This document shows positions 15,970 through 34,440 of a DNA stretch of 40,520 nucleotides, in pieces; position 1 is the first letter of the stretch; every line of letters starts with the position of its first letter. The notes under the pieces were generated by a model. It did not search any database. It was given only the letters and a program-made list of their open reading frames with translations, and had not been told where the DNA came from. The translations under genes and the position numbers were made by a program. This stretch comes from Thermoplasmatales archaeon. Lineage in GTDB: Archaea; Thermoplasmatota; E2; UBA202; JdFR-43. The stretch spans positions 1 to 40,520 of the forward strand of contig JACIWB010000009.1 in the NCBI GenBank assembly GCA_014361245.1, in the 5' to 3' direction.

Positions 15970-18900
15970 ATGAAATTAAAGAAATTTGCATATTTGTTTA
16001 TAATATTGTTAATCTGCATAATTTTATACAGAGGGGGGGCGATTGATAATATCCCTCCAGTAACAATAAAAAGTTTTCAGGGAGCAATATATGAAATGGA
16101 TGGAATTGAATGGATAAGCAATTCAACAATTATATGGCTCAATTCAACAGATGCTGGAACAGGAGTAAAATATTTATACTATGAAATATGGGCGGACATA
16201 AACAATGATGGAATAATAGATGTAATGATAGAAAACAGGACAGTAAATGATAACTCACCTCAGGATATGGACAGCACTCTCAAAAAAATATCTGTAAAAG
16301 TAATAATAAATAGTGAATGCCTGCATAAACTCGAATTTTACTCTGCTGATTGGGCGGGAAATGTTGAAAAGCATGGCGCTTACTTATATAAAGAATGGAA
16401 CTATGCCTTAGGGTTTAATGTTGTTCATGCACCAAATGGATGTGTGTTTGGCTCATCTCCTGCAATTGCAAATTTATCAGGAGATAAAAAGCTTGAAATA
16501 GTATGTGGAAGCGATGAAATAACTAATTTTTATCCAGAAATAAATGCTACTGCGAGAGGAATATGGAGATGTTTTAGTTACAATGGAAGCATATTATGGG
16601 CTCTTGATACAAAAACAGATGAATCAAGGAGCTCGCCTGCTATTTTTGATTTGGATGGCGACGGAAAGTTAGATATTGTTGGAGGCACAACAAGCGGGTG
16701 GCTTCTTGAAGTAATCAATTATAATGGAACATTTAAATGGACATTCCCTCATGTAACCGCAAATGCAACAGGTGGAAATTATGTATGGCATTCTTCTCCA
16801 GCAATAGGTGAGTTAAATGAAAGTGTTGGTGGATTGGAAATTGTAATAGGAAACAATCCATTTAAAAATTTGTGGTGCTTTGATGGAGATAACAGCGATG
16901 GAATTGATGAAGGATTTACCTTGCCTCTTAATGGAGATGGCACTTCTCCCTATTTCCCAGGTTATCCAAATCACATTGGTTATGAAGGAACTGATTGGGA
17001 TGTTCTATGGGTTTTCAATACTTCTGGAAATATTATATCAACTCCTTCAATTGGAGATGTAGATAATGATGGAAAAAATGAAGTAATCTTTGGCTCTGCT
17101 GATGGAAAAGTTTATATATTAAATGGCTCAAATGGCTTGCAGGAATGGAATTTTACAACAGGAGGAGAAATTTATTCATCTCCCGCCATTGCGGACATTG
17201 ATGTAGATGGCTATATGGAAATTTTAATCGGCTCTACAGATGGAAAATTTTATTGCCTGCAATGGAATGGCTCAAATGGCTTGCAGGAATGGAATTTTAC
17301 AACAGGAGGAGCAATTTATTCATCAGCAGCTGTCGGAGACATAAACGCAGATGGTTTTTATGAAATAATATTTGGCTCGAATGATGGCAAACTTTATTGC
17401 TTAGCAAGGAATGGGACAATGCTGTGGAATTTTACAACAGGAGGAGCAATTTATTCATCTCCCGCCCTCGCCTTGCCGGATGCGGGCGCATTTGCTATGG
17501 AATGGCGGATGTTCAGGGGAAATGAGAGGAGGAGCGGGTTGTATGGGGGCTCTGGGAGGCTTGATATATTTGTTACATCCGAGGATAAATATCTGTATGA
17601 GATTGACTGCAATGGAAAACTTGTTGATAAATTTTTGACAAACGGGAGAATAAGAACTTCTCCAGCGGTTGCGGATGTGGATGGAGATGGTCTGCTTAAT
17701 GTGCTATTTTATGACTGGGGGAGAGAAAATGCGAGCAATGATACCTTTTGGTGCTTGGAAAGAGGGGTTAAGAATGTTAATATTTTAAGAGTAGATGTTT
17801 TGCCTCCTGTTACAAACAAAACAGTTCTAAGTGAAGATATTTATAATATAACAAAAGAAACTGATATATGGCTGAATGCAACTGATGCGGGAAATTGTAA
17901 ATCTGGAGTTAAATATCTTTATTATGAAATATGGCATGATAGCAACTGGGATGGGATAGTGGATACGATGGTAAAAAATGCGACAATTTATGATAATACT
18001 CCGTATGATAAAAACCCGAATTTTGGAGAAATATCTGTTTTGATAAATCTAACAAATGGTGGAATAAATGAGATAAGATGGTTCTCAGTGGATAATGTTG
18101 ATAATAAGGAGACAAAGCATACTCAAAAGCACAATGTTATAACAGGTATGCCATTGCTTACAATAACAAAGCATGATAGCATTGATCCAGTAAATCCAGG
18201 AAGCTATTTGAATTACACAATAAATGTAACAAATACAGGAAGTGAGAACGCAAGCAATGTAATTGTTACTGAAACATATGATAGCAATGTTATTTTCATT
18301 TCATCAAATCCTCCAGCAAGCTCTGGAAATAATGTATGGAATTTGGGAACAATAAGCGTAGGAGAAAGCAAAATAATAAACATAAGAGTTCAGGTTAAAA
18401 GCCCGTTGCCAAATGGAACAATACTGCATAACTATGTAAATGTAACATGCTTGCAAGGAGCATTTAATCAAACATGGGAAAATACAACAGTTGCATCTCC
18501 CTCACTTGTTATAACAAAAGAGAGCCTAACTGATTTTGCTGAGGCGGGGGCAAATATTTCATATAGAATAAGAGTAAAGAATAACGGGCTGGTGAGTGCG
18601 ACAAATGTAGTTGTAAGAGAATTATATGATAGCAGGGTAACGCTAGTATATGCATTTCCTATGCCCTCCTCTGGCTTTGATACATGGTTTATACCAACTC
18701 TTGTGCCCTCTGCATCCTATGAAATTTTGTTGAAGGTGAGGGTTGCGAGTAATGTAAGCGGTGGTTCAATTATCGTAAATTATGTAAATGTAACATGCTC
18801 GGAAAATGCGTATGGAGAGGCTTATGCATACACACCTGTTGTTTCAGAGCCACCCTATACTTACAAAAGATTTAATGGCACTGTTTTTAATGTTTCAAGT

Positions 18901-19686
18901 TATGGAAACTATGTTGTGCATTACATTCTTTCAAATACAACCATAGATTTAGTAGCAATTGATAATGGTTCTGGAGTCAATAAAACATTTTATAGAATAT
19001 TTAAATTTGAGGATGGATGGAAATTGCTTTTTGACTGGAGAGAATATAATGGCTCATATCCATATCGCCCGATAAATCTCTCGCAACTCGGCATCTTGTA
19101 TGGCTATTCTCCATGTGGAAAATATGAAATTGAATTTTACAGCATTGATAATGTTGGAAATGTTGAACAAATAAGATGGAATGATGTTTTTGTTGATTGC
19201 TTCAATCCTTATTCAATTATTGAGCCAATTCCTTATCTAACATATTCTTCAAGTATAGAAATAAGAGTTAATGCAAGTGATATAGGTGTTGGGATAGGAA
19301 AGGTTGCTTTGTATTATAGATATAGCGTAGATAATTCAACTTGGACAAACTGGCTTTTATATGGAGAAAAAACGAGCAACTTTACATGGATTTTCAATGC
19401 AAATCAGAGTGGCTATTATCAATTCTATTCAGTTGCTTATGATTTACTTGGATTGCATGAGCCATTGCCAAATGCAAGCACAATTCCAAAAGCATATTGC
19501 AAGGTATATAGACCATGGGATGTTAATTCAGATGGAAGGGTAAATGCGGAAGATATTTTCTTTGTCCTCACTCACTGGATGCAGACGCCAAGCCATCCGC
19601 AATGGGATGAAAGAGCGGATGTAAATAAGGATGGTATCGTTGATGTTGATGATATTATAGAGATAATAAAGCACTGGATTGGTTAA
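15970..19686 (+). CDS. Secreted propeller/DUF11 protein with C-terminal dockerin
   Basis: 1238 residues. Signal peptide at about 1-24. An Ig-like domain (24-143) is followed by a beta-propeller-like region (about 144-527) of FG-GAP/PQQ-type blades with repeated Asp-x-Asp-x-Asp-Gly loops and Ser-Ser-Pro-Ala-Ile strands. Next come an Ig-like unit (about 610-720), two DUF11 repeats (about 730-957) and another Ig-like part. The last 58 residues are a type I dockerin: two calcium loops, DVNSDGRVNAED and DVNKDGIVDVDD, each followed by a helix. Dockerins bind cohesins, and the next gene, 1 nt after the stop, encodes one. The protein is therefore probably displayed on the cell through that partner. 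The propeller may bind a ligand; no catalytic motif is seen. Confidence 0.9.
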   Translation: MKLKKFAYLFIILLICIILYRGGAIDNIPPVTIKSFQGAIYEMDGIEWISNSTIIWLNSTDAGTGVKYLYYEIWADINNDGIIDVMIENRTVNDNSPQDMDSTLKKISVKVIINSECLHKLEFYSADWAGNVEKHGAYLYKEWNYALGFNVVHAPNGCVFGSSPAIANLSGDKKLEIVCGSDEITNFYPEINATARGIWRCFSYNGSILWALDTKTDESRSSPAIFDLDGDGKLDIVGGTTSGWLLEVINYNGTFKWTFPHVTANATGGNYVWHSSPAIGELNESVGGLEIVIGNNPFKNLWCFDGDNSDGIDEGFTLPLNGDGTSPYFPGYPNHIGYEGTDWDVLWVFNTSGNIISTPSIGDVDNDGKNEVIFGSADGKVYILNGSNGLQEWNFTTGGEIYSSPAIADIDVDGYMEILIGSTDGKFYCLQWNGSNGLQEWNFTTGGAIYSSAAVGDINADGFYEIIFGSNDGKLYCLARNGTMLWNFTTGGAIYSSPALALPDAGAFAMEWRMFRGNERRSGLYGGSGRLDIFVTSEDKYLYEIDCNGKLVDKFLTNGRIRTSPAVADVDGDGLLNVLFYDWGRENASNDTFWCLERGVKNVNILRVDVLPPVTNKTVLSEDIYNITKETDIWLNATDAGNCKSGVKYLYYEIWHDSNWDGIVDTMVKNATIYDNTPYDKNPNFGEISVLINLTNGGINEIRWFSVDNVDNKETKHTQKHNVITGMPLLTITKHDSIDPVNPGSYLNYTINVTNTGSENASNVIVTETYDSNVIFISSNPPASSGNNVWNLGTISVGESKIINIRVQVKSPLPNGTILHNYVNVTCLQGAFNQTWENTTVASPSLVITKESLTDFAEAGANISYRIRVKNNGLVSATNVVVRELYDSRVTLVYAFPMPSSGFDTWFIPTLVPSASYEILLKVRVASNVSGGSIIVNYVNVTCSENAYGEAYAYTPVVSEPPYTYKRFNGTVFNVSSYGNYVVHYILSNTTIDLVAIDNGSGVNKTFYRIFKFEDGWKLLFDWREYNGSYPYRPINLSQLGILYGYSPCGKYEIEFYSIDNVGNVEQIRWNDVFVDCFNPYSIIEPIPYLTYSSSIEIRVNASDIGVGIGKVALYYRYSVDNSTWTNWLLYGEKTSNFTWIFNANQSGYYQFYSVAYDLLGLHEPLPNASTIPKAYCKVYRPWDVNSDGRVNAEDIFFVLTHWMQTPSHPQWDERADVNKDGIVDVDDIIEIIKHWIG
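17124..17466 (+). repeat. Near-identical propeller-blade repeats
   Basis: A segment reading roughly Gly-Leu-Gln-Glu-Trp-Asn-Phe-Thr-Thr-Gly-Gly occurs at about 17124-17187, 17269-17325 and, shortened, 17424-17466. The copies are almost identical in DNA and about 145-150 bp apart, so they are recently duplicated or homogenised coding repeats. Confidence 0.8.
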
Positions 19687-19687
19687 T

Positions 19688-22018
19688 ATGAAATTTCTAA
19701 CTGCGCTTCCAATCATCTTCTCTATTACAATATCTTCTGGATGCATCGCTTATAATCTGATAAAGGTGGATGCTCCCCGAATCATTCAACCAAATGAAGA
19801 ATTTGAAGTTTATATCAATATAACGCCATGCGAAGCAATTGCGGGGGCGCAGTGCAATTTTTCGTTCAATAAAGATGTTTTAATTGCTGAAGATATTATA
19901 AACGGAGGAATTTTTGAATACTGGGCAAATGATATATATGAAAATTTTACAAGAATAGATAATCAGAATGGCAGTATTTATAACATTGTTGCATTTTCTT
20001 CTAATTCAACCAATAGCGAGGGAATATTTGCGAGAATTGTATTTTTAGCTAAAGGCGAAGGTAATTCCTGGCTTGATATAGTGGATGCTGTAATATCGGA
20101 TGAGGAAGGAAATAAAACAATTATAGAGGTAATCAATGGAAGCATTTTTGTTGATGCAACTCCACCGAATATAACATTTTATTCTCCAAATGAATTTTTC
20201 AGTAGAAACATATCATTGATATGGGGGGCAAAAGATAATTATTCTCCGGAAGAAAAAATATTTTATTCATACTCCCTTGATGGAGGAGAATGGAGTGAAT
20301 GGAATAATTCGAATGAAACATTTTTTGAGCTTGATGCTGGAAATTATACTTTCATGTTAAAGGCAAAAGATGAAGCGGGAAATTTAAGATATGAAAACTT
20401 CTCTTTTTGTGTTAGAGATAACTCGCCACCAGAGATAAAAAATTTAAAAATTTATAAAATAAATGGCAGTGTTAATATATCATGTGATATATCAGACGAC
20501 TTTGGTATTCAGGAAGTTTTTTTAATCTTAAATGGAATAAATTATTCAATGGAGAAAAATGAGAATTATTTTTTTAATTCATCTCTTCCATCTGGAATAT
20601 ATAACTATACAATAGTTGCGATAGATAAAAGCGGTAATAAAAATACTTCAGATGGAAATTTTTCTATAAACTCGCCACCAGATAAACCATCTTTGATTAG
20701 CCCATCTAATGGAACAACAAATGTTGGTATAAATACAATTTTATCCTGGCAATGTAGCGATGTTGATGGAGATATTTTAACTTATGATATTTATTTTGGA
20801 ACTTTTTCAAATCCTCCATATAAAGAAACTGTTTCAAATACAAATTATAATCCAGGAACATTAAGCTATTCAACTACTTACTACTGGCGAATAGTAGCAA
20901 AAGATGGAGAATATGAGAATTCATCAGATATATGGCAATTTACAACCATGGCATATACTCCTCCAACTCCTCCACCTCCAGCAAATTTACCCCCTGCTTG
21001 CTCATTGAATGCAAATGTCAGTTATGGATATGCTCCTCTCTATGTTAATTTCATAATGAATGGAAGTGATAGCGATGGAAGCATAATAGCATGGGAGCTT
21101 GATGTAGATAATGATGGAATAGCTGAATATAGTGGCAATTCATTGCCTTCGACAAAATCGCATATCTATGCTATTTCTGGAAATTATACCGCAAAATTAA
21201 CTGTTAGGGATGATAAAGGAGCGATTTCAACATCAAATATTTCAATATTTGTTAGAGCAAATATTTCGGTTGATTTTGAATTTATTCCAATAAGACCTGC
21301 GCCTGGTGTAAGGGTGAATTTTTATTCGCTTGTGGAAGCAATAAATTATACCTGGCAATTTGGGGACGGAAGCATTGCCTATGGGAAAAATGTGAGCCAT
21401 TCATTTGCAAGAGATGGAAAATATAGAGTGAAGCTGAATGTTTCTGATGGATTTTATTATTATGAGAAAAATTATACGGTGGATGTGGTTATTCCAGATT
21501 TTTATGTTGAAGCGAGATATTTGCCGGAGAAGCCTAAAAAAGGGGAAAAAATAACCATATTTTTGAATATAAATAATGATGGAGGATATTCTGAAAATGT
21601 AAAATGCTCTGTTTTTCTTGATGGAAAGGAGCAATTCTTTAGCTTCAATATATCTGAAAAATATGAAAAAGAGATTTATGCTCAAGGAATAAGCAAAATA
21701 AAGATTTTTGTCGATCCAGAAAATGAAATAGAGGAAAAAAATGAAGGAAATAACGAGCTTGAATTTTCAATAAAATATGCTGGCATTAATCTTATCTATT
21801 TAGCAATTATTCCATTTATTGCAATTGTTGCCCTTTCCTATCTATTATTAAGAAAGAAAAAAGTTGTTATCGAGGAGGAAAGGATTGAAAAATGCTCTGT
21901 TTGCCTTGGCTTATTTAAGGAGGAGGCTAATATTATAAGATGCGATTGTGGAGCATTGTATCATAAAAGCTGTGCCAAAAGAGTAAAAAATTGCATAAAT
22001 TGCGGTAAAAAACTTTAA
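19688..22018 (+). CDS. Membrane-anchored cohesin protein with cytoplasmic RING-like zinc finger
   Basis: 776 residues from ATG 19688, 1 nt after the dockerin gene's stop. Signal peptide 1-21. A cohesin domain covers about 22-155, with the alternating strand pattern Ala-Gly-Ala-Gln-Cys-Asn-Phe-Ser-Phe, Val-Leu-Ile-Ala-Glu-Asp, Gly-Ile-Phe-Ala-Arg-Ile-Val-Phe. Two Ig-like units (about 160-330), a fibronectin type III-like unit (330-430), two PKD domains (about 435-600; the second has Trp-Gln-Phe-Gly-Asp-Gly) and a CARDB domain (about 605-697) make a stalk. One membrane helix lies at 700-721 with a basic stop-transfer. The tail has Cys736, 739, 752, 754, His759, Cys762, 769 and 772, a C4HC3 RING-like pattern. 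Topology puts the cohesin outside and the zinc finger inside. It is likely the cell anchor for the dockerin proteins. Confidence 0.9.
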   Translation: MKFLTALPIIFSITISSGCIAYNLIKVDAPRIIQPNEEFEVYINITPCEAIAGAQCNFSFNKDVLIAEDIINGGIFEYWANDIYENFTRIDNQNGSIYNIVAFSSNSTNSEGIFARIVFLAKGEGNSWLDIVDAVISDEEGNKTIIEVINGSIFVDATPPNITFYSPNEFFSRNISLIWGAKDNYSPEEKIFYSYSLDGGEWSEWNNSNETFFELDAGNYTFMLKAKDEAGNLRYENFSFCVRDNSPPEIKNLKIYKINGSVNISCDISDDFGIQEVFLILNGINYSMEKNENYFFNSSLPSGIYNYTIVAIDKSGNKNTSDGNFSINSPPDKPSLISPSNGTTNVGINTILSWQCSDVDGDILTYDIYFGTFSNPPYKETVSNTNYNPGTLSYSTTYYWRIVAKDGEYENSSDIWQFTTMAYTPPTPPPPANLPPACSLNANVSYGYAPLYVNFIMNGSDSDGSIIAWELDVDNDGIAEYSGNSLPSTKSHIYAISGNYTAKLTVRDDKGAISTSNISIFVRANISVDFEFIPIRPAPGVRVNFYSLVEAINYTWQFGDGSIAYGKNVSHSFARDGKYRVKLNVSDGFYYYEKNYTVDVVIPDFYVEARYLPEKPKKGEKITIFLNINNDGGYSENVKCSVFLDGKEQFFSFNISEKYEKEIYAQGISKIKIFVDPENEIEEKNEGNNELEFSIKYAGINLIYLAIIPFIAIVALSYLLLRKKKVVIEEERIEKCSVCLGLFKEEANIIRCDCGALYHKSCAKRVKNCINCGKKL

Positions 22019-22229: not shown

Positions 22230-23900
22230 ATGCATATAAAAAATCCAAGTGATGATTTCTTCAAAGAATTCCTCAAGCCATATTATGCCCTAACTTCAGA
22301 TGGGCAGTATCTTTTTGCATCCCGCCAGAAGGGGCGCCTGCCAGACAGAGTTTTTTACATGGCGGAAAGGCTCGGGAAGGGGCAGAAAAGGTTTGATGAA
22401 GAGGAAGGAAAGGAAATTTTCAGGATTGTTGAAAAATATATTAAAAATGCGGATGTTATAGAAATTGATGGTTGTTATGGGGATGAATGGAAGACCGGTG
22501 TAAAAGTTTTTGTTAGCATTGAAAATCCTCATTCTGGATATGTTGCCTGGATGGGAAAACAGATGCTCTTTCCTTTTGAAGGAAATGCAAACTGCTTTAA
22601 TTTTATTATACCGGAAGGGTTGCCAGAAGCAAAGGAAATAAGCAAGAATTATAAGGAGCCAATCTCTCTATTTGATTTAACTGAAGCAAATAAGGATATA
22701 AGGAAAGTTGTTAATATTGGAATTGATTATTTTGGGGGAGCGTTCAAGAAGCCAAATCTAACAATGGTATGGAATAGAGCGGAAATGCAGGGAATGATTT
22801 CATATCATGCGGGATGTTATGATGGAACAATTATAAAAGGGCTTAGCGGGACAGGAAAAACAACCCTTACAATTGGCAATGATATTGAGCAGGATGATGC
22901 TCTTGTTGGATTGCCAATTTGTAAAAATGGAAAGATTGAAAAAATAAAGCTTGTGGGGCTTGAGGCGGCGAGTTTTGCAAAATCTGAGGGAATAGATGAA
23001 AGCTCGCCGGAATGGCGGGGGCTTGTTTCATCTCTAAATGGCGAAGTTGTTATTGCTTTGAATATTGATTGCGAAGGGGTTGAATTTGTTCTTGAAAAAG
23101 TTGGGGAGCATGAAGCTCTTGTTCCAAAAGGAAAGGCGGGGAAGTTAAAGTGCAAATCATATGAAAAGAGCAAGACAACAAATGGAAGATTTATTTTTAA
23201 ATTCAGTATTCTTAATAAGAACTGGAAAAAAGAAAAATATCTCAGGGCGGAGGGGCTTAGCTTCAGGAGATATGATATTCTTGAACCAATCCTGAGGGTT
23301 ATTGAACCAGAAATGGCGGTTGCTTTTGACAGTGCATGCGAAACAGTAATAACTTCAGCAATTGAAGGAGGAGCGGGAAAGAGGGTAAGAAGGTATGCAG
23401 CAACTGATTTCATGGCGGGCGAGCAGGCAAGCCAGGCATGGCTCAAGCTGAAAGCTTATTCTGATATCGGGCTTGATAGGCTTGTATTTTTTGTTGTGAA
23501 TACTGGATATGTTGGGCAGTGCGATGTTGAAGGAAAAAAGATTTGCGAGGGAGAGAAAATAAAAGTAGAGGAGACAAAAAGGCTGATATCTCTTGTTGTT
23601 GAAGGAAAGGTAAGGAGATGGGTTCGCAATCCAGTTTTTGGGTATCTGCTTCCTGAGCCGAGGGAAATTGATGAATATATTGATAATTTTTCTGAAAGGT
23701 TCAATTTGCTTCGCTTTTATAGCTCAAAAGAAATTGCTGATTTTTACAGGAGGGATATTGAGGAGAGGAGCAATTTTCTGAAAGAAATTTTTGAAGGACA
23801 GGAAAAAGAAAAAGAGCTAAAAGGAGTAATAAATTTTTGGAATAATTTTCAGCCTGATGAAGAAAAAATAAAGGAATTTTATGAAGAAAATTATCGATAG
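22230..23900 (+). CDS. pckA: Phosphoenolpyruvate carboxykinase, ATP-type
   Basis: 556 residues. Interconverts oxaloacetate + ATP and PEP + CO2 + ADP, the first committed step of gluconeogenesis. The P-loop Gly-Leu-Ser-Gly-Thr-Gly-Lys-Thr at 204-211 is the form found in ATP-dependent enzymes; GTP enzymes have a different, Cys-containing loop. Asp222/Asp223 follow as the probable kinase-2 metal site. Arg-rich Gly-Lys-Arg-Val-Arg-Arg-Tyr and Asn-Thr-Gly-Tyr-Val-Gly-Gln near 385-435 lie in the C-terminal catalytic half. It is a divergent, archaeal-looking member of roughly normal length (usual 520-540). A TATA-like stretch (about 22198-22211) about 26 nt upstream supports the ATG at 22230. With PPDK it gives two routes to PEP. 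Confidence 0.9.
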   Translation: MHIKNPSDDFFKEFLKPYYALTSDGQYLFASRQKGRLPDRVFYMAERLGKGQKRFDEEEGKEIFRIVEKYIKNADVIEIDGCYGDEWKTGVKVFVSIENPHSGYVAWMGKQMLFPFEGNANCFNFIIPEGLPEAKEISKNYKEPISLFDLTEANKDIRKVVNIGIDYFGGAFKKPNLTMVWNRAEMQGMISYHAGCYDGTIIKGLSGTGKTTLTIGNDIEQDDALVGLPICKNGKIEKIKLVGLEAASFAKSEGIDESSPEWRGLVSSLNGEVVIALNIDCEGVEFVLEKVGEHEALVPKGKAGKLKCKSYEKSKTTNGRFIFKFSILNKNWKKEKYLRAEGLSFRRYDILEPILRVIEPEMAVAFDSACETVITSAIEGGAGKRVRRYAATDFMAGEQASQAWLKLKAYSDIGLDRLVFFVVNTGYVGQCDVEGKKICEGEKIKVEETKRLISLVVEGKVRRWVRNPVFGYLLPEPREIDEYIDNFSERFNLLRFYSSKEIADFYRRDIEERSNFLKEIFEGQEKEKELKGVINFWNNFQPDEEKIKEFYEENYR

Positions 23901-23913: not shown

Positions 23914-24333
23914 ATGAATATAAAAATGATGGATAAAAATATAAAAGAAGGAATGAGGTGGCTCCTGCAGGCGGAAATGGATTTAAAAACAAGCAGGGAT
24001 TGCTTAAAAGATGAAAATTATTATGCAAGCGTATTTTTCTCCCAGCAATCCGCAGAGAAGGCATTGAAAGGTTTTTTATATTCTAAGGGTTATAGAGCAA
24101 TAATAACTCATTCAATTATTGATTTGCTTAAAGAAATATCAGAAATTGAAGAAAATTTCGAAAAATTTTTTGATTTTGGAAAGGAACTGGATCGCCACTA
24201 TATAGCGTCTCGTTATCCAAATTTTTATCCTTCAGGAGCTCCATTTGAATTTTATAACAAGGAGGTGGCGGAAAAATGCATAAGTTATGCAGAGTCGATA
24301 TTAAAAGAAGTAAAGAAATACTTGAAGGAATAG
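23914..24333 (+). CDS. HEPN domain protein (partner of MNT nucleotidyltransferase)
   Basis: Up to 139 residues. The helical HEPN fold is recognisable from Trp-Leu-Leu-Gln-Ala-Glu-Met-Asp-Leu, then Tyr-Tyr-Ala-Ser-Val-Phe-Phe-Ser-Gln-Gln-Ser-Ala-Glu-Lys-Ala-Leu-Lys, then Arg-His-Tyr-Ile-Ala-Ser-Arg-Tyr-Pro. An Arg61-x4-His66 pair resembles the R-x4-6-H motif of HEPN RNases, though its position in the fold needs checking. HEPN/MNT pairs act as toxin-antitoxin modules: the HEPN RNase is the toxin and the nucleotidyltransferase modifies or restrains it. ATGs at 23914, 23926 and 23929 are in frame; the promoter favours the later two. The gene overlaps its partner by 58 nt. Confidence 0.88.
   Translation: MNIKMMDKNIKEGMRWLLQAEMDLKTSRDCLKDENYYASVFFSQQSAEKALKGFLYSKGYRAIITHSIIDLLKEISEIEENFEKFFDFGKELDRHYIASRYPNFYPSGAPFEFYNKEVAEKCISYAESILKEVKKYLKE
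24259..24266 (+). promoter_or_regulatory. Strong Shine-Dalgarno for the MNT gene inside the HEPN gene
   Basis: AAGGAGGT lies 9 nt before the ATG at 24276, within HEPN coding sequence. It fixes the start of the downstream gene and allows translation of both proteins from one message. Confidence 0.65.
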
Positions 24334-24635
24334 AAAAATATAAGGAAAAGATTATTAAAATTTTAAAGCCAGAAAAAATAATTTTGTTTGGTTCCTTTGC
24401 GAGAGGTGATTTTAATGAAGGCTCAGATATTGATATAGTTGTTATTGCGGAATGGAAAGAAAATTTTCTTGATAGAATAAAAATTTTGATGGATTTAAAT
24501 GATTATAGCCTACCAGTTGAAGCAATTGGCTATACAAAAGAAGAATTTGAAAAAATGAAGGAAGAAAAAAATCCTTTTATTTTAAATATTCTTGAAGAAG
24601 GAAAAATAATTTATGAAAAAACAAGCAAGATTTAA
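24276..24635 (+). CDS. MNT-type minimal nucleotidyltransferase
   Basis: 119 residues of the minimal nucleotidyltransferase family (DNA polymerase beta superfamily). The active-site motif Gly39-Ser40 followed by Asp51-x-Asp53 in Gly-Ser-Asp-Ile-Asp-Ile-Val is intact; the third acidic residue is probably Glu92 or a near neighbour. In characterised HEPN/MNT systems the nucleotidyltransferase adenylylates the HEPN toxin and so neutralises it. The ATG at 24276 is set by an AAGGAGGT sequence. It overlaps the HEPN gene by 58 nt and ends 9 nt before the next promoter, so the pair is a closed two-gene operon. Confidence 0.9.
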   Translation: MHKLCRVDIKRSKEILEGIEKYKEKIIKILKPEKIILFGSFARGDFNEGSDIDIVVIAEWKENFLDRIKILMDLNDYSLPVEAIGYTKEEFEKMKEEKNPFILNILEEGKIIYEKTSKI

Positions 24636-29888: not shown

Positions 29889-30514
29889 CCCTCTTTCCTT
29901 CTTTTGTTTTTGCATCCAATCCATTGGTTATATATGGATATGTTTATTATGAAGGAAATTTTATCAATGGCATAGAAATTGAAGCGGTTAATAATGAAAG
30001 TGGAGAAAAATTATTTGCTGTCAGCGAGAATGGTGCATATGTTTTAACTTTTGGAAATCCTCCCTACAGCTGGAAAATAGGTGATAAAATAATTTTAAAG
30101 GCGAGAGGAAAAGGAAATTATTCATGCCTATATGGGTATAAAGAAATAACAATTTCATCCGATGCTCCATTACAGGTGGATTTATCTCTTGATGTTGATT
30201 TAAATCCAAACTTTGTTTATACTCCTTCTCAGCCAAAAGCAGGAGAAAATATTTCCTTTATAGATAATTCAATTGGAACAATTTTAAATTATACATGGCA
30301 GTTTGGAGATGGAAACATAAGCTATGAAAAAAATCCAAAGCATGCATATGAAAAAGAAGGAAAATATAATGTAAATCTAACAGTTTCCTGCGGTGGCTTC
30401 AGCAAAAGCATTTCAAAAGAAATAATTGTCTCAGAGAAAAAGGAAAGAACCCCTGGATTTGAATTCATTGCCTTAATTTTTGCAATATTTATTGTGATAA
30501 GAAAATGGAAATGA
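29849..30514 (+). CDS. PKD-domain surface protein with PGF-CTERM-like tail
   Basis: 221 residues; the start overlaps the end of the beta-helix gene by 40 nt. Signal peptide 1-22. A CarboxypepD_reg/CNA-B-like beta domain covers about 25-112 and a PKD domain about 116-193, with Trp-Gln-Phe-Gly-Asp-Gly. The C-terminus is Thr-Pro-Gly-Phe-Glu, one hydrophobic helix and a final basic Arg-Lys-Trp-Lys. That order resembles the PGF-CTERM signals processed by archaeosortases, and the protein may be lipid-anchored after cleavage. A plain membrane anchor is the alternative. It overlaps the next gene by 10 nt, so the three genes are co-translated. Confidence 0.82.
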   Translation: MGWRKKLLIIASLTLFPSFVFASNPLVIYGYVYYEGNFINGIEIEAVNNESGEKLFAVSENGAYVLTFGNPPYSWKIGDKIILKARGKGNYSCLYGYKEITISSDAPLQVDLSLDVDLNPNFVYTPSQPKAGENISFIDNSIGTILNYTWQFGDGNISYEKNPKHAYEKEGKYNVNLTVSCGGFSKSISKEIIVSEKKERTPGFEFIALIFAIFIVIRKWK

Positions 30515-33500
30515 AAAAAATTGCTCTTTTTATTTCATTCATTCTCATAGCAAACCTAATTTTTGCCCAACCTAGCACACCTTACACTATTTTGATTTAT
30601 GTTTATTTATATGGTTTGCCAGTCAGCAATGCGACAGTTATTGTAACCGAACTTGCAACAAATGAAAGCGGAATCGCAGATCAGGAGGGAGAAGGGCTTT
30701 ACGGAATTAATTTAGGAAATTTCGAGCATGGATGGAGTGTAGGCGACTATGTTCTTATAGAAGTTTTTTATGATGAATATTATGTGAGCGCAACAATAGT
30801 TTTAACCAACGAAGGCTATTCTGTTGTAAATATTTCATTGAGAGATAATACCCCGCCAGTTGCAAACAATGACAGCTACACTACAAATGAAGATATTGTT
30901 TTAATTATAAATGCACCTGGCATACTTGGAAATGATTATGATGCAGATGGAGATACTTTAACCGCTGTATCAGTAAGCAATCCAACTCATGGAAGTTTAA
31001 CATTCAATTCAAATGGCTCATTTTTATATACTCCAAATTCAAATTATTATGGAACAGATTCATTTACATATAAAGCATATGATGGATTTGGTTATTCAAA
31101 CATTGCAACAGTTTATATTACAATAAACAGCATAAATGATGCACCTGTTGCAAATGATGATTATGCAAGCATGGAAGAAGATAATTCCATAATTATTTCA
31201 GTTCTCTCAAATGACTATGATATAGATGGAACAATAAATGAAAGCAGTTTAAGAATAATTCAAAATGCCTCACATGGAAATATAACAGTAAATTCAAATG
31301 GAACAGTAACATATACTCCAGAAGAAAATTATTATGGAAATGATTCCTTTAAATACAGATTTATGGATAATGGAAATACCTGGAGCAATACTGCAAATGT
31401 TTATATAAATATCTCGCCAGTAAATGATAAGCCAACCGCATATTTAATCAGCCCTGAAAATAATTCAGTTAATATAAACATAAATGCAACATTAGCAGTT
31501 CATTTAATTGATATAGATAGCAATAGCATGAGCGTTAAATTTTATGGTCGCAAGTTAGGAAATTCAACATGGCAATTTTTAGGAATAAATACAGATGTTG
31601 CAAATGATAGCAATACTTCATTAATCTGGTATAATCTTCAATATAATACAACATATGAATGGTATGTAGTTGCAAATGATAGCATTGCTGAAAATTCATC
31701 AGATATATGGAGATTTACAACACAAGCTATAAATACTCCACCAGTTGCAAATGATGACAGCTATTCAACAGACGAAGATATCGCTTTAACTGTAAATACT
31801 CCGGGAGTATTAGAAAATGATAATGATATAGATGGAGATAATTTAACTGCAATTCTTGTAAGCAATCCAAATCATGGAACTGTTGTTTTGAATTCAAATA
31901 GCTCATTCACATATACTCCAAATTCAAATTATCATGGAACAGATTCATTTACATATAAAGCATATGATGGAATCGCTTATTCAAATATCGCAACTGTTTA
32001 TATTACAATAAACAGCGTAAATGATGCTCCAGTTGCAAATGATGATTATGCAAGCACAGATGAAGATACACCAGTTTTGATAAATTTATCCGCAAATGAT
32101 TATGATATAGATGGAAATATAAATTTAACCAGTATAACAATAACTCAATCCCCATCTCATGGAAGCGTAAATGTTCATTCAAATGGAACAGTAACATATA
32201 CACCTTCATTGAATTATTATGGTTCGGATTCATTCAAATATAAAGCAAAGGATAATGATGGAGCAGATAGCAACATTGCAACAGTAACAATAACAATAAA
32301 CAGCACAAATGATGCTCCTTTTGCAAATTTCACCTATGAGCCATTGAATCCAATCATAGGGCAATTAATTTATTTCAACAGCACTTCATATGATATAGAT
32401 GGCTACATTGTAAATTGGACATGGAATTTAGGGGATGGAAATTTTGCTTATGAAGAAAATGTCACGCATGTTTATAGCGGGGCAGGAATTTACAATGTTA
32501 CCCTGATTGTCAGGGATGGCGATGGCGCCACCTCAAGCATTGTAAAAGAGATTGTAATTCAGGTAGGTGATTTAATCCCTCCATTAACAACATTAACATT
32601 TGGAACACCACACTATTATGATGGAACATATCACTGGATTACTTCAGCAACACAAATTACATTAACCGCAACAGATGGAGAAAGCGGGGTAAAAGCAACA
32701 TATTACAGGATATGGTATGATGGTTCATGGAGTGACTGGACTACATATACAGAATCATTTACTTTAGCAGACGAGTGTTTGCATTACATTGAGTATTATT
32801 CTGAAGATAAAGCGGGAACAATCGAAGATGTGCATAATCAAACTGTTTATGTAGATAATACCCCACCAGAAACAACATTGACATTTGGAACACTACACTA
32901 TTATGATGGAACATATCACTGGATTACTACTTCCACACAAATTACATTAACCGCAACAGATGCTCCAGATTGTGCATGTGGAGTAGATAAGATATACTAT
33001 TACATTGATGCCTTGCCAGCAATTGAATATACCGCTCCATTTACAGTTACTACAACAGGAGTGCATACAATTTATTATTATAGCGTTGATAATCTTGGAA
33101 ATACTGAAACAACAAAGAGCATAACAGTAAAAGTAGATAATACCCCGCCAGATATAATTCTTGAAATAGGAGAACCAAAATATAATGAATATGTCAGATC
33201 AACAACTCAATTCAATTTATCCGCAATTGATGAAGGAAGCGGAATAGCATTTTTAGAATATCGCATATTTTATGAAAATTGGAGTGAATGGAAGCAAGAA
33301 GAAAATTTTAAATTGCAGGGAGAGGGAATTCATTATCTTGAAATAAGGGCAATTGATAATCTGGGAAATACCGCATATGAAAATGAAACATATTATGTTG
33401 ATGACAGCCCACCATCTTCGCGTGTAGATGAAATAATTCTATATGAGCAGGAAGAAATTCCATTCAATATCAGCATTGTTGATATTGAAGACGATGGAGC

Positions 33501-34440
33501 GGGAGTATGCAGGGTAGAGGCATATTATTCATACAGCGAGAATAATATAACATGGAGTGAATGGCGATTATATACAACATTTTTTATACCCTATGAGCAG
33601 AGATATAATGTATCAAATCAAACAATCAGCTTCGATGCTCCAGAAGGGGTTGCATTTTATCGCTTCATAAGCATTGCATATGATTGCCTTGAAAATAAAG
33701 AATTGCCACCATATTATCATGGCACATATGATGCGGAGTGCTTCTTCAATGCTTCAATTTTTATAAGATTTGGAATGCCAAAATATGGTGAATGGATTTC
33801 ACCTTTTACACCGATTAATATTTCAATGAAGAGAGAAGGAAATATATATTACAGAATATATCATGAAGGATGGCATCCGCAGGAGGGCTTTTATTTATAT
33901 TCTGGAAATTTCACCATTAATTTCAGTGGAACAAGCTATATAGAATTTTATGGTGATGGTTTGCCAGTAAGAAATGCAACAGTTAAGGTAGATGTTTCAG
34001 CTCCAGAAACTTTTATCTTATCGGAATTTTTTGTTGTTTCACCTTTGCTTATTGAATGCAATGCATATGATAATGAAAGCGGTTTAAAATGCGTTGAATT
34101 TTATTATCAATATAGCTATGATAATTTTACATGGAGCGATTGGAAGCTTGAAAGCATTGATTACAGCATGCCCTATACCTGTATTTTCAGTGAAATTGGA
34201 TTTTATAATATTTCAACTGTTGGAATAGATAATGTTGATAATTTTGAAGGGAGTGAAACAAAAGCTTCTGTAAGAATTTTCAATCCGGATTTCAACAATG
34301 ATGGTTTGGTAAATGTTCAGGATTTGGTTATAATTGCAAAAAATTTTGATGGAAATGAAGCAAAATTTGATATAAATGGTGATGCAACTGTTGATTTAAA
34401 TGATACAAGGCTTATTTTTGAATTCTGGCATAAGAGATGA
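30505..34440 (+). CDS. Secreted cadherin-like/Ig/PKD protein with C-terminal dockerin
   Basis: 1311 residues. ATG at 30505 or 30511; signal peptide to about 22. A CarboxypepD_reg-like domain lies at 25-112. Tandem cadherin-like/Big_9 repeats (about 117-305 and 415-600) have Pro-Pro-Val-Ala-Asn-Asn-Asp-Ser-Tyr and Asn-Asp-Tyr-Asp-x-Asp-Gly calcium sites. A fibronectin type III-like unit lies between them and a PKD domain at about 605-688. Cys-paired Ig-like repeats cover 690-1250. The end is a type I dockerin: DFNNDGLVNVQD and DINGDATVDLND, each followed by a helix, at about 1257-1311. It is the second dockerin in the window and is likely bound by the cohesin protein encoded at 19688. No catalytic motif is seen; a structural or adhesive role is likely. 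Confidence 0.9.
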   Translation: MEMKKIALFISFILIANLIFAQPSTPYTILIYVYLYGLPVSNATVIVTELATNESGIADQEGEGLYGINLGNFEHGWSVGDYVLIEVFYDEYYVSATIVLTNEGYSVVNISLRDNTPPVANNDSYTTNEDIVLIINAPGILGNDYDADGDTLTAVSVSNPTHGSLTFNSNGSFLYTPNSNYYGTDSFTYKAYDGFGYSNIATVYITINSINDAPVANDDYASMEEDNSIIISVLSNDYDIDGTINESSLRIIQNASHGNITVNSNGTVTYTPEENYYGNDSFKYRFMDNGNTWSNTANVYINISPVNDKPTAYLISPENNSVNININATLAVHLIDIDSNSMSVKFYGRKLGNSTWQFLGINTDVANDSNTSLIWYNLQYNTTYEWYVVANDSIAENSSDIWRFTTQAINTPPVANDDSYSTDEDIALTVNTPGVLENDNDIDGDNLTAILVSNPNHGTVVLNSNSSFTYTPNSNYHGTDSFTYKAYDGIAYSNIATVYITINSVNDAPVANDDYASTDEDTPVLINLSANDYDIDGNINLTSITITQSPSHGSVNVHSNGTVTYTPSLNYYGSDSFKYKAKDNDGADSNIATVTITINSTNDAPFANFTYEPLNPIIGQLIYFNSTSYDIDGYIVNWTWNLGDGNFAYEENVTHVYSGAGIYNVTLIVRDGDGATSSIVKEIVIQVGDLIPPLTTLTFGTPHYYDGTYHWITSATQITLTATDGESGVKATYYRIWYDGSWSDWTTYTESFTLADECLHYIEYYSEDKAGTIEDVHNQTVYVDNTPPETTLTFGTLHYYDGTYHWITTSTQITLTATDAPDCACGVDKIYYYIDALPAIEYTAPFTVTTTGVHTIYYYSVDNLGNTETTKSITVKVDNTPPDIILEIGEPKYNEYVRSTTQFNLSAIDEGSGIAFLEYRIFYENWSEWKQEENFKLQGEGIHYLEIRAIDNLGNTAYENETYYVDDSPPSSRVDEIILYEQEEIPFNISIVDIEDDGAGVCRVEAYYSYSENNITWSEWRLYTTFFIPYEQRYNVSNQTISFDAPEGVAFYRFISIAYDCLENKELPPYYHGTYDAECFFNASIFIRFGMPKYGEWISPFTPINISMKREGNIYYRIYHEGWHPQEGFYLYSGNFTINFSGTSYIEFYGDGLPVRNATVKVDVSAPETFILSEFFVVSPLLIECNAYDNESGLKCVEFYYQYSYDNFTWSDWKLESIDYSMPYTCIFSEIGFYNISTVGIDNVDNFEGSETKASVRIFNPDFNNDGLVNVQDLVIIAKNFDGNEAKFDINGDATVDLNDTRLIFEFWHKR
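32872..33150 (+). repeat. Ig-like module shared with the upstream beta-helix gene (copy 2)
   Basis: Highly similar to 28407-28682. A third, partial copy (Leu-Thr-Phe-Gly-Thr-Pro-His-Tyr-Tyr onward) lies just before it at about 32585-32680 in the same gene. Confidence 0.75.

Follow-up and report, generated by a model that had tools for sequence, protein, structure and literature searches.

A cohesin-bearing archaeal surface protein with a predicted cytosolic RING-like finger, a candidate E3-like receptor for a ubiquitin-like system

Why should a protein that carries a cohesin domain outside the cell end in a zinc finger on the inside? The question is raised by a gene in the window, by which we mean the whole 40,520-nucleotide stretch of contig JACIWB010000009.1 from a Thermoplasmatales archaeon that was analyzed (genome G000 below). 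A sequence-only reading had described its product as an exported cohesin domain on a PKD/CARDB stalk, followed by one membrane helix and a 41-residue intracellular tail with eight metal ligands. All these parts turned out to be present (Table 1), and the architecture of the receptor is near certain. The cohesin domain (PF00963) scored 35.5 bits against a cut-off of 24.1 in Pfam (E = 1.3e-8) and 41.1 bits in the genome scan, behind an N-terminal hydrophobic export signal, while the CARDB domain of the stalk reached 37.9 bits (cut-off, 22.7) and PKD domains were likewise matched by Pfam. The membrane helix, placed at residues 700-721 by that reading, was seen by hydropathy a few residues further on. 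The eight ligands lay exactly where claimed, in the order C736-x2-C739-x12-C752-x-C754-x4-H759-x2-C762-x6-C769-x2-C772. An alternative in-frame start, TTG, is found at 19679. In a contig scan of named genomes, residues 330-430 of the stalk gave a single partial match, to a Bacteroidales MAG.

Table 1. Features of the cohesin-finger locus in the window and of the ubiquitin-like system elsewhere in the same genome
Feature	Position	Strand	Evidence or detail
Putative upstream partner gene, 1238 aa: FG-GAP/beta-propeller, DUF11 repeats, C-terminal type I dockerin	15970..19686	+	Pfam
Type I dockerin, residues 1184-1234	about 19519-19671	+	Two Ca-loop motifs, DVNSDGRVNAED and DVNKDGIVDVDD
Cohesin-TM-RING receptor gene, 776 aa	19688..22018	+	ATG 19688, stop 22018; Pfam, translation
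Export signal, N-terminal; hydrophobic stretch FLTALPIIFSITI	19688..19753	+	Hydropathy
Cohesin domain, residues 28-153	19769..20146	+	Pfam Cohesin
Predicted extracellular stalk: Ig-like domains, two PKD, CARDB (residues 603-692)	20147..21763	+	Pfam
Single membrane helix, residues 705-723	21800..21856	+	Hydropathy; AlphaFold2 helix
Predicted cytosolic RING-like finger, C736-C772	21893..22003	+	Pfam Prok-RING_1; AF2; Foldseek; spacing
Ubl-E2-JAMM operon of the window's genome	G000:C10, L078 5496-6851		
E1 orthologue of the window's genome	G000:C38, L093 3612-4394		

Since the protein has an N-terminal hydrophobic segment and one C-terminal helix with the basic cluster RKKK directly after it, its ectodomain is predicted to lie outside and its C-terminal ~50 residues inside the cell, as the intracellular tail of the earlier description implies. 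By a positive-inside count, more Lys/Arg followed the helix than preceded it in all 13 tails compared. A frameshift that artificially joined the tail to the rest is excluded, because tail, helix, and ectodomain share one frame in independent genomes. At the level of sequence, this supports the description of a cohesin ectodomain joined by one membrane helix to a RING-like finger in the cytosol. The C terminus consists of the helix and the finger, and neither an S-layer-homology domain nor a sortase anchor, the endings of scaffoldins, was detected there by Pfam and hydropathy.

We then determined how widely this arrangement occurs, using a profile (A1) built from 13 fingers. The finger was present in 14 of the 22 genomes of the order (E <= 2e-23), usually together with a cohesin, and in none of the 58 genomes elsewhere in the class; matches were one per genome, with the single exception of the window's own. 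In the relatives it forms the C-terminal end of long open reading frames, and the C4HC3 spacing, which had been proposed from the window alone, was identical in all 13 tails. An identical spacing in every tail, together with a finger in 14/22 genomes versus 0/58, argues that it is more than a chance pattern. The search for the same architecture in archaeal genomes showed a cohesin-type N terminus, a membrane helix, and the finger, with both ends conserved, in seven genomes belonging to the family and in two from a second family of the order. Full or nearly full proteins starting cohesin-like were found in G004, G008, G010, G012, G013, and G016 (same family) and in G019 and G020 (other family). 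When four of them were scanned, Pfam Cohesin was confirmed in G008, G019, and G020 but not reported for G004, for which the assignment rests on the alignment.

The two ends of the protein and its middle have been conserved to very different extents. In an eight-way orthologue alignment, the mean pairwise identity was 63% for the finger, 40% for the cohesin, and 19% for the stalk, which also varies in length and is poorly conserved in sequence. Over the last 45 codons, the comparison of the window with the sister species G001 gave a dN of 0.11 and a dS of 1.02, and that with a second copy on contig C73 gave 0.06 and 0.89, respectively. With dN/dS at about 0.06-0.11, purifying selection on the finger is strong, whereas the stalk is drifting. 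The second copy is part of a duplicate of much of the window region, ~77-82% identical, that lies on three short contigs of the same genome (C40, C73, and C46; L069, L034, and L072) and includes the dockerin gene, the cohesin start, and the finger tail; it represents either a co-binned sister species or a segmental duplication.

The nature of the finger was addressed by profile scores and structure prediction. The isolated tail scored 34.0 bits with Prok-RING_1 (PF14446), above the cut-off of 29.1 (34.2 bits in the genome scan and 27.9 inside the full-length protein), and the eight ordered metal ligands of that family are invariant in the 13 tails. With zf-RING_2 it fell slightly short (26.3 against 27.3 bits). 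A PHD or C1 identity was rejected, the isolated tail giving 16.9 and 18.8 bits, respectively, well under the cut-offs. Besides the copy on C73, no other match above the cut-off was found when the genome was scanned with Prok-RING_1. AlphaFold2 modeled the finger block of the 13 tails with a pLDDT of 85-93, plus the membrane helix, and the best Foldseek matches of the tail model in the PDB were the RING domains of RNF165, Arkadia, RNF12, and RNF13 (probability, 0.99-1.00; TMt up to 0.67). The best E value was only 0.015, as the domain is small. A PHD chain appeared first at rank 28. The predicted fold is RING-like, in agreement with the RING-type pattern suggested by the ligand spacing, and the match in fold, by itself, suggests that two zinc ions would be held in a cross-brace. 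The ligands, however, run C4HC3, whereas a classic RING has His as its fourth ligand.

The residues around the ligands were then compared with those through which RING domains engage an E2. In the first Cys pair, the E2-contact position is hydrophobic, CSVC in the receptor and Val or Ile (CxVC/CxIC) in 13/13 tails. The Trp of the helix after ligand 6 is missing, Val or Ile standing there in a short C-x6-C loop, and so is the linchpin Arg/Lys next to ligand 8, where Gly directly follows the last Cys (Asn in one copy). Most of the 13 tails have Lys/Arg one residue beyond the linchpin position. The invariant non-ligand residues of the finger are G, K, GA, A, and R.

Outside the cell, a likely partner is encoded immediately upstream. 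Dockerins of type I are the natural ligands of cohesins, and the adjacent gene ends in one, with two Ca-loop motifs and a Dockerin_1 score of 37.4 bits against a cut-off of 22.9 in Pfam (37.8 bits in the genome scan). Its stop codon (19684-19686) is separated from the cohesin ATG by a single base. Dockerin ends adjoin cohesin starts at C1, C40, and C49 of the window's genome as well, and in G020, of another family, a DUF11-dockerin gene directly precedes the cohesin-TM-finger gene. From the adjacency here, at the other loci of the genome, and in G020, we infer that this cohesin would bind the upstream dockerin, so that a cohesin-dockerin lock probably ties the partner to the receptor on the outside of the cell. 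In most other relatives, a reading of the gene neighborhoods, made without a Pfam scan of the neighbors, placed the receptor gene amid unrelated genes with no evident dockerin neighbor; the pairing is therefore likely at the window locus but apparently not universal. The finger protein of G001 has a different N-terminal domain, which points to an apparent ectodomain swap in this sister species; past its dockerin gene, a cohesin gene start appears to be interrupted by stops (L035 9755-10430). Elsewhere in the window (30505-34440), a 1311-aa repeat protein has a weak dockerin-like C-terminal end (17.4 bits, under the cut-off) and is followed by a giant, secreted-looking open reading frame that extends past the window edge.

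On the inside, the window's genome encodes a ubiquitin-like modifier (Ubl) with the ubiquitin fold, an E2 (HPN...C), an Rpn11-like JAMM protease, and an E1, a set conserved across most of the order. The E2 and JAB domains scored 59 and 57.8 bits in Pfam (cut-offs, 27 and 22.5, respectively). In all 15 loci read, the Ubl-E2-JAMM operon is compact, and in five of them (G007, G011, G017, G019, and G021) an E1 of the ThiF family lies directly upstream. The E2 keeps the HPN motif, the conserved Cys, and the Pro-Tyr of loop 4, and is devoid of the loop-7 Pro, a feature of UbcH5-type enzymes; the JAMM motif is of the HSH-x-GYSSFMS type, followed by Asp. The C terminus of the Ubl is Gly-Gly, to which some genomes add a few residues that would have to be trimmed, and the AlphaFold2 model of the Ubl matched ubiquitin and NEDD8 best (Foldseek E, 2e-7; TM, about 0.86-0.90). 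The E2 was found in 16 of the 22 genomes of the order, in 3 of the 58 others of the class, and in none of 14 control genomes. No NCBIfam model matched the Ubl or the E2. Assignment to Bil or another PADLOC defense system was rejected, as no PADLOC match was obtained for the Ubl or E2, and those obtained for the E1 and JAMM were mainly to general E1-E2/JAB models. A SAMP-type, E2-free modifier as the only system was ruled out for the operon, because the Ubl adjoins a true E2; a separate pair of MoeB/ThiF-like and MoaD/ThiS-like genes is also present on C10.

Do the finger and the E2 occur together? Class-wide, the E2 was present in 9 of 14 finger-bearing and in 10 of 66 other genomes (Fisher p=4e-4, uncorrected for relatedness), and within the order alone a positive association was absent (p=0.35). 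Among the 12 near-complete genomes of the order, four have the E2 without the receptor, and the reverse, a receptor but no E2, holds for one, G020 (92% complete). The receptor gene lies outside the Ubl operon. In another class, a contiguous E1-Ubl-E2-JAMM locus (L199 7528-9532; 137 bits for the E2, 88 for the Ubl, and 102 for the JAMM) was found in G172, a single complete genome picked because it bears the finger and consists of a single contig, and for which we had expected a finger without an E2.

The dockerin neighbor and the E1/Ubl/E2/JAMM set, neither of which the sequence-only reading had pointed out, together offer a concrete candidate partner for the tail. The gene product would be a single-pass surface receptor, whose N-terminal cohesin, spaced from the membrane by the Ig/PKD/CARDB stalk, would bind the dockerin of the upstream propeller protein and thereby lock this secreted binding module onto the cell surface. 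Through the stalk and the one membrane helix, it would be joined to a Prok-RING_1-type finger in the cytosol, which would most likely recruit the E2 of the cell's ubiquitin-like system. Binding or assembly outside could then bring Ubl conjugation to the cytosolic face of the membrane, with the receptor itself or its neighbors as targets. We infer binding of the E2 by the finger, and promotion of transfer, from several observations: the tail passes Prok-RING_1, its model best matches RING E3 domains, including that of the transmembrane ligase RNF13, it keeps the Val/Ile contact, the E2 keeps the loop-4 Pro-Tyr, finger and E2 co-occur class-wide, and G172 has both. Against this stand the C4HC3 order, the loss of the helix Trp and the linchpin (two features that aid catalysis in RING ligases), the genomes of the order that have only one of E2 and receptor, and the position of the receptor gene outside the Ubl operon. 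Both sides of the contact are thus non-standard, a finger without Trp and linchpin facing an E2 without the loop-7 Pro. As the contact features are partly kept and partly lost, recruitment of the E2 with an E3-like action, which would make the protein an archaeal analogue of transmembrane RING ligases, is a tentative reading to which we give somewhat less than an even chance. The probabilities attached to the competing readings overlap, so they should not be added up.

A non-catalytic role of the finger is a reading to which we give a somewhat lower chance. The finger could be an adaptor, a binuclear treble clef like PHD or C1, through which the receptor is clamped onto a scaffold in the cytosol or onto cytosolic proteins with a finger of this kind, serving mechanical anchoring or clustering and not Ubl transfer. 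Its C4HC3 order and L4-x4-L5 spacing resemble those of PHD and C1 fingers, both of which are weak profile matches (with PHD also in the Foldseek list, low as its rank is), and the missing Trp and linchpin Arg fit this role. The wider distribution of the finger bears on it too. It was found in 84 of 390 genomes sampled across the phylum, either at the C-terminal end following a membrane helix (L111; L116), in short proteins where an N-terminal helix precedes it (L119, L120, and L128), or capping giants of 1500-3200 aa in other lineages (L109, L110, L112, L123, and L124). The giants have no predicted helix and are accordingly taken as cytosolic, and a finger that such giants share with other proteins may serve protein interactions in general. 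On the other hand, the PHD and C1 scores are far under their cut-offs while that of Prok-RING_1 is above, the best structural matches are RING ligases, and the genome holds a full Ubl/E1/E2 set, with Prok-RING_1 above the cut-off only here and in the C73 copy.

It is less probable, and on the whole unlikely, that the true E3 of the system is another protein, the receptor being at most a substrate or unrelated. The candidate is a small Cys-rich protein encoded upstream of gyrB, 90-115 aa long with four Cys pairs, which adjoins gyrB in 3/3 genomes read (L050 around 2300-2465, on G000:C8; L049 10343-10648; and L051). It weakly matches Prok-RING_1 and is also present in some finger-negative genomes, e.g., G007, and the E2 persists where the receptor is missing; yet its spacing, C-x2-C-x8-C-x2-C-x13-C-x2-C-x4-C-x2-C, is unfit for a RING, and its Prok-RING_1 score is far under the cut-off (E about 0.001-0.01). 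Least probable of all is that the tail acts mainly as a zinc module with a structural or regulatory task (stop-transfer, stability, or redox or zinc sensing) on a mere surface anchor with no relation to the Ubl system: the receptor gene does lie outside the Ubl operon, and anchoring alone can suffice for such proteins, as further cohesin proteins from this genome have a C-terminal hydrophobic helix with a basic tail but no finger (L067 4236-7190 and L068 1049-4438), but anchoring alone would not demand the strong purifying selection seen on the finger, invariant non-ligand residues included, while the stalk drifts, and RING or treble-clef domains facing the cytosol are usually interaction modules.

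Returning to the E3-like reading, we compared the receptor with known systems. To our knowledge, Prok-RING_1 has not been described on a cohesin-bearing, exported, single-pass receptor, and a literature search for cohesin plus RING in archaea found no paper. Only the combination is new, since the finger is covered by a known Pfam family and is also carried, more widely in the phylum, by other proteins; the receptor finger fits the ligands and spacing of Prok-RING_1 and is placed here at the extreme C terminus of a surface protein. As far as we know, the coupling of surface binding to ubiquitin tagging by transmembrane RING ligases is regarded as eukaryotic. Members of the PA-TM-RING family have an exported ectodomain, one membrane helix, and a cytosolic RING. 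The receptor has the plan of these and other transmembrane RING E3 proteins (RNF13, GRAIL, and RNF43/ZNRF3), with an export signal, one membrane helix, and a predicted cytosolic RING-like finger, but its ectodomain is made of cohesin, PKD, and CARDB and not of PA, a domain that was absent from the Pfam matches of the receptor, and its finger is C4HC3 without the helix Trp and linchpin Arg. The likeness is one of architecture and does not imply common descent of the whole protein.

The nearest archaeal system is that of Candidatus Caldiarchaeum subterraneum, which likewise comprises a Ubl, an E1, an E2, an Rpn11-like JAMM, and a RING-type candidate E3, srfp (PMC5654768, PMC6043591). While srfp is small and encoded in the operon, the candidate E3 described here is membrane-bound and encoded elsewhere. 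The srfp protein needs I30, W58, and R69, and the loop-4 Pro-Tyr of the E2 is essential in that system (PMC5654768); in the receptor finger, the equivalent of I30 is kept as Val/Ile, that of W58 is Val/Ile, and the linchpin is lost. Operons of prokaryotes that combine Ub, E1, E2, and JAMM but encode no E3 are on record, with E3-like RING proteins described only for C. subterraneum and Asgard archaea (PMC6043591), and the operon of the window's genome looks like one of this E3-less group. With regard to the ectodomain, non-cellulosomal cohesin and dockerin proteins of Archaeoglobus fulgidus and ANME archaea are extracellular and not tied to cellulose, and archaeal pairs bind strongly and specifically (PMC9012536); the anchors named in the section on them are S-layer or sortase based, with no mention of a cytosolic zinc finger such as the receptor has. 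The TMEM132 family (PMC6030884) resembles the receptor in carrying cohesin and Ig domains on a single-pass membrane protein that links outside to inside. It differs in being eukaryotic, in having PP1-docking and WIRS motifs and no RING in the tail, and in having no known dockerin ligand.

If the finger serves the E2, the receptor would be a candidate for the E3 that these operons lack (PMC6043591), a gap that could be closed by a finger whose gene lies apart from the operon. Archaeal ubiquitin-like tagging would then be placed at the cell membrane, as a prokaryotic counterpart to receptor-linked ubiquitylation. Even without E3 activity, archaeal cohesin-dockerin pairs could reach into the cell, beyond decorating its surface. 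A second type of ectodomain on the same plan is found in G360 (L116 1043-4750), in which a Kelch propeller and Ig domains precede the membrane helix and the finger. A bolder reading, with a chance again somewhat under even, is that archaeal receptors with swappable ectodomains, cohesin here and Kelch in G360, use the RING-like finger as an E3 for outside-in Ubl tagging, putatively outside the Asgard archaea, and so provide the missing E3 of the Ub-E1-E2-JAMM operons.

Several other genes were noted in the window. Downstream of the receptor gene, a 556-aa protein (22230-23900) distantly matches ATP-type PEP carboxykinase (60 bits) and has syntenic homologues in G001 and on C73. A HEPN protein with an overlapping nucleotidyltransferase (23914-24635) forms a typical HEPN-MNT toxin-antitoxin pair. 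The window also encodes a release factor of the eRF1 family, which marks the DNA as archaeal.
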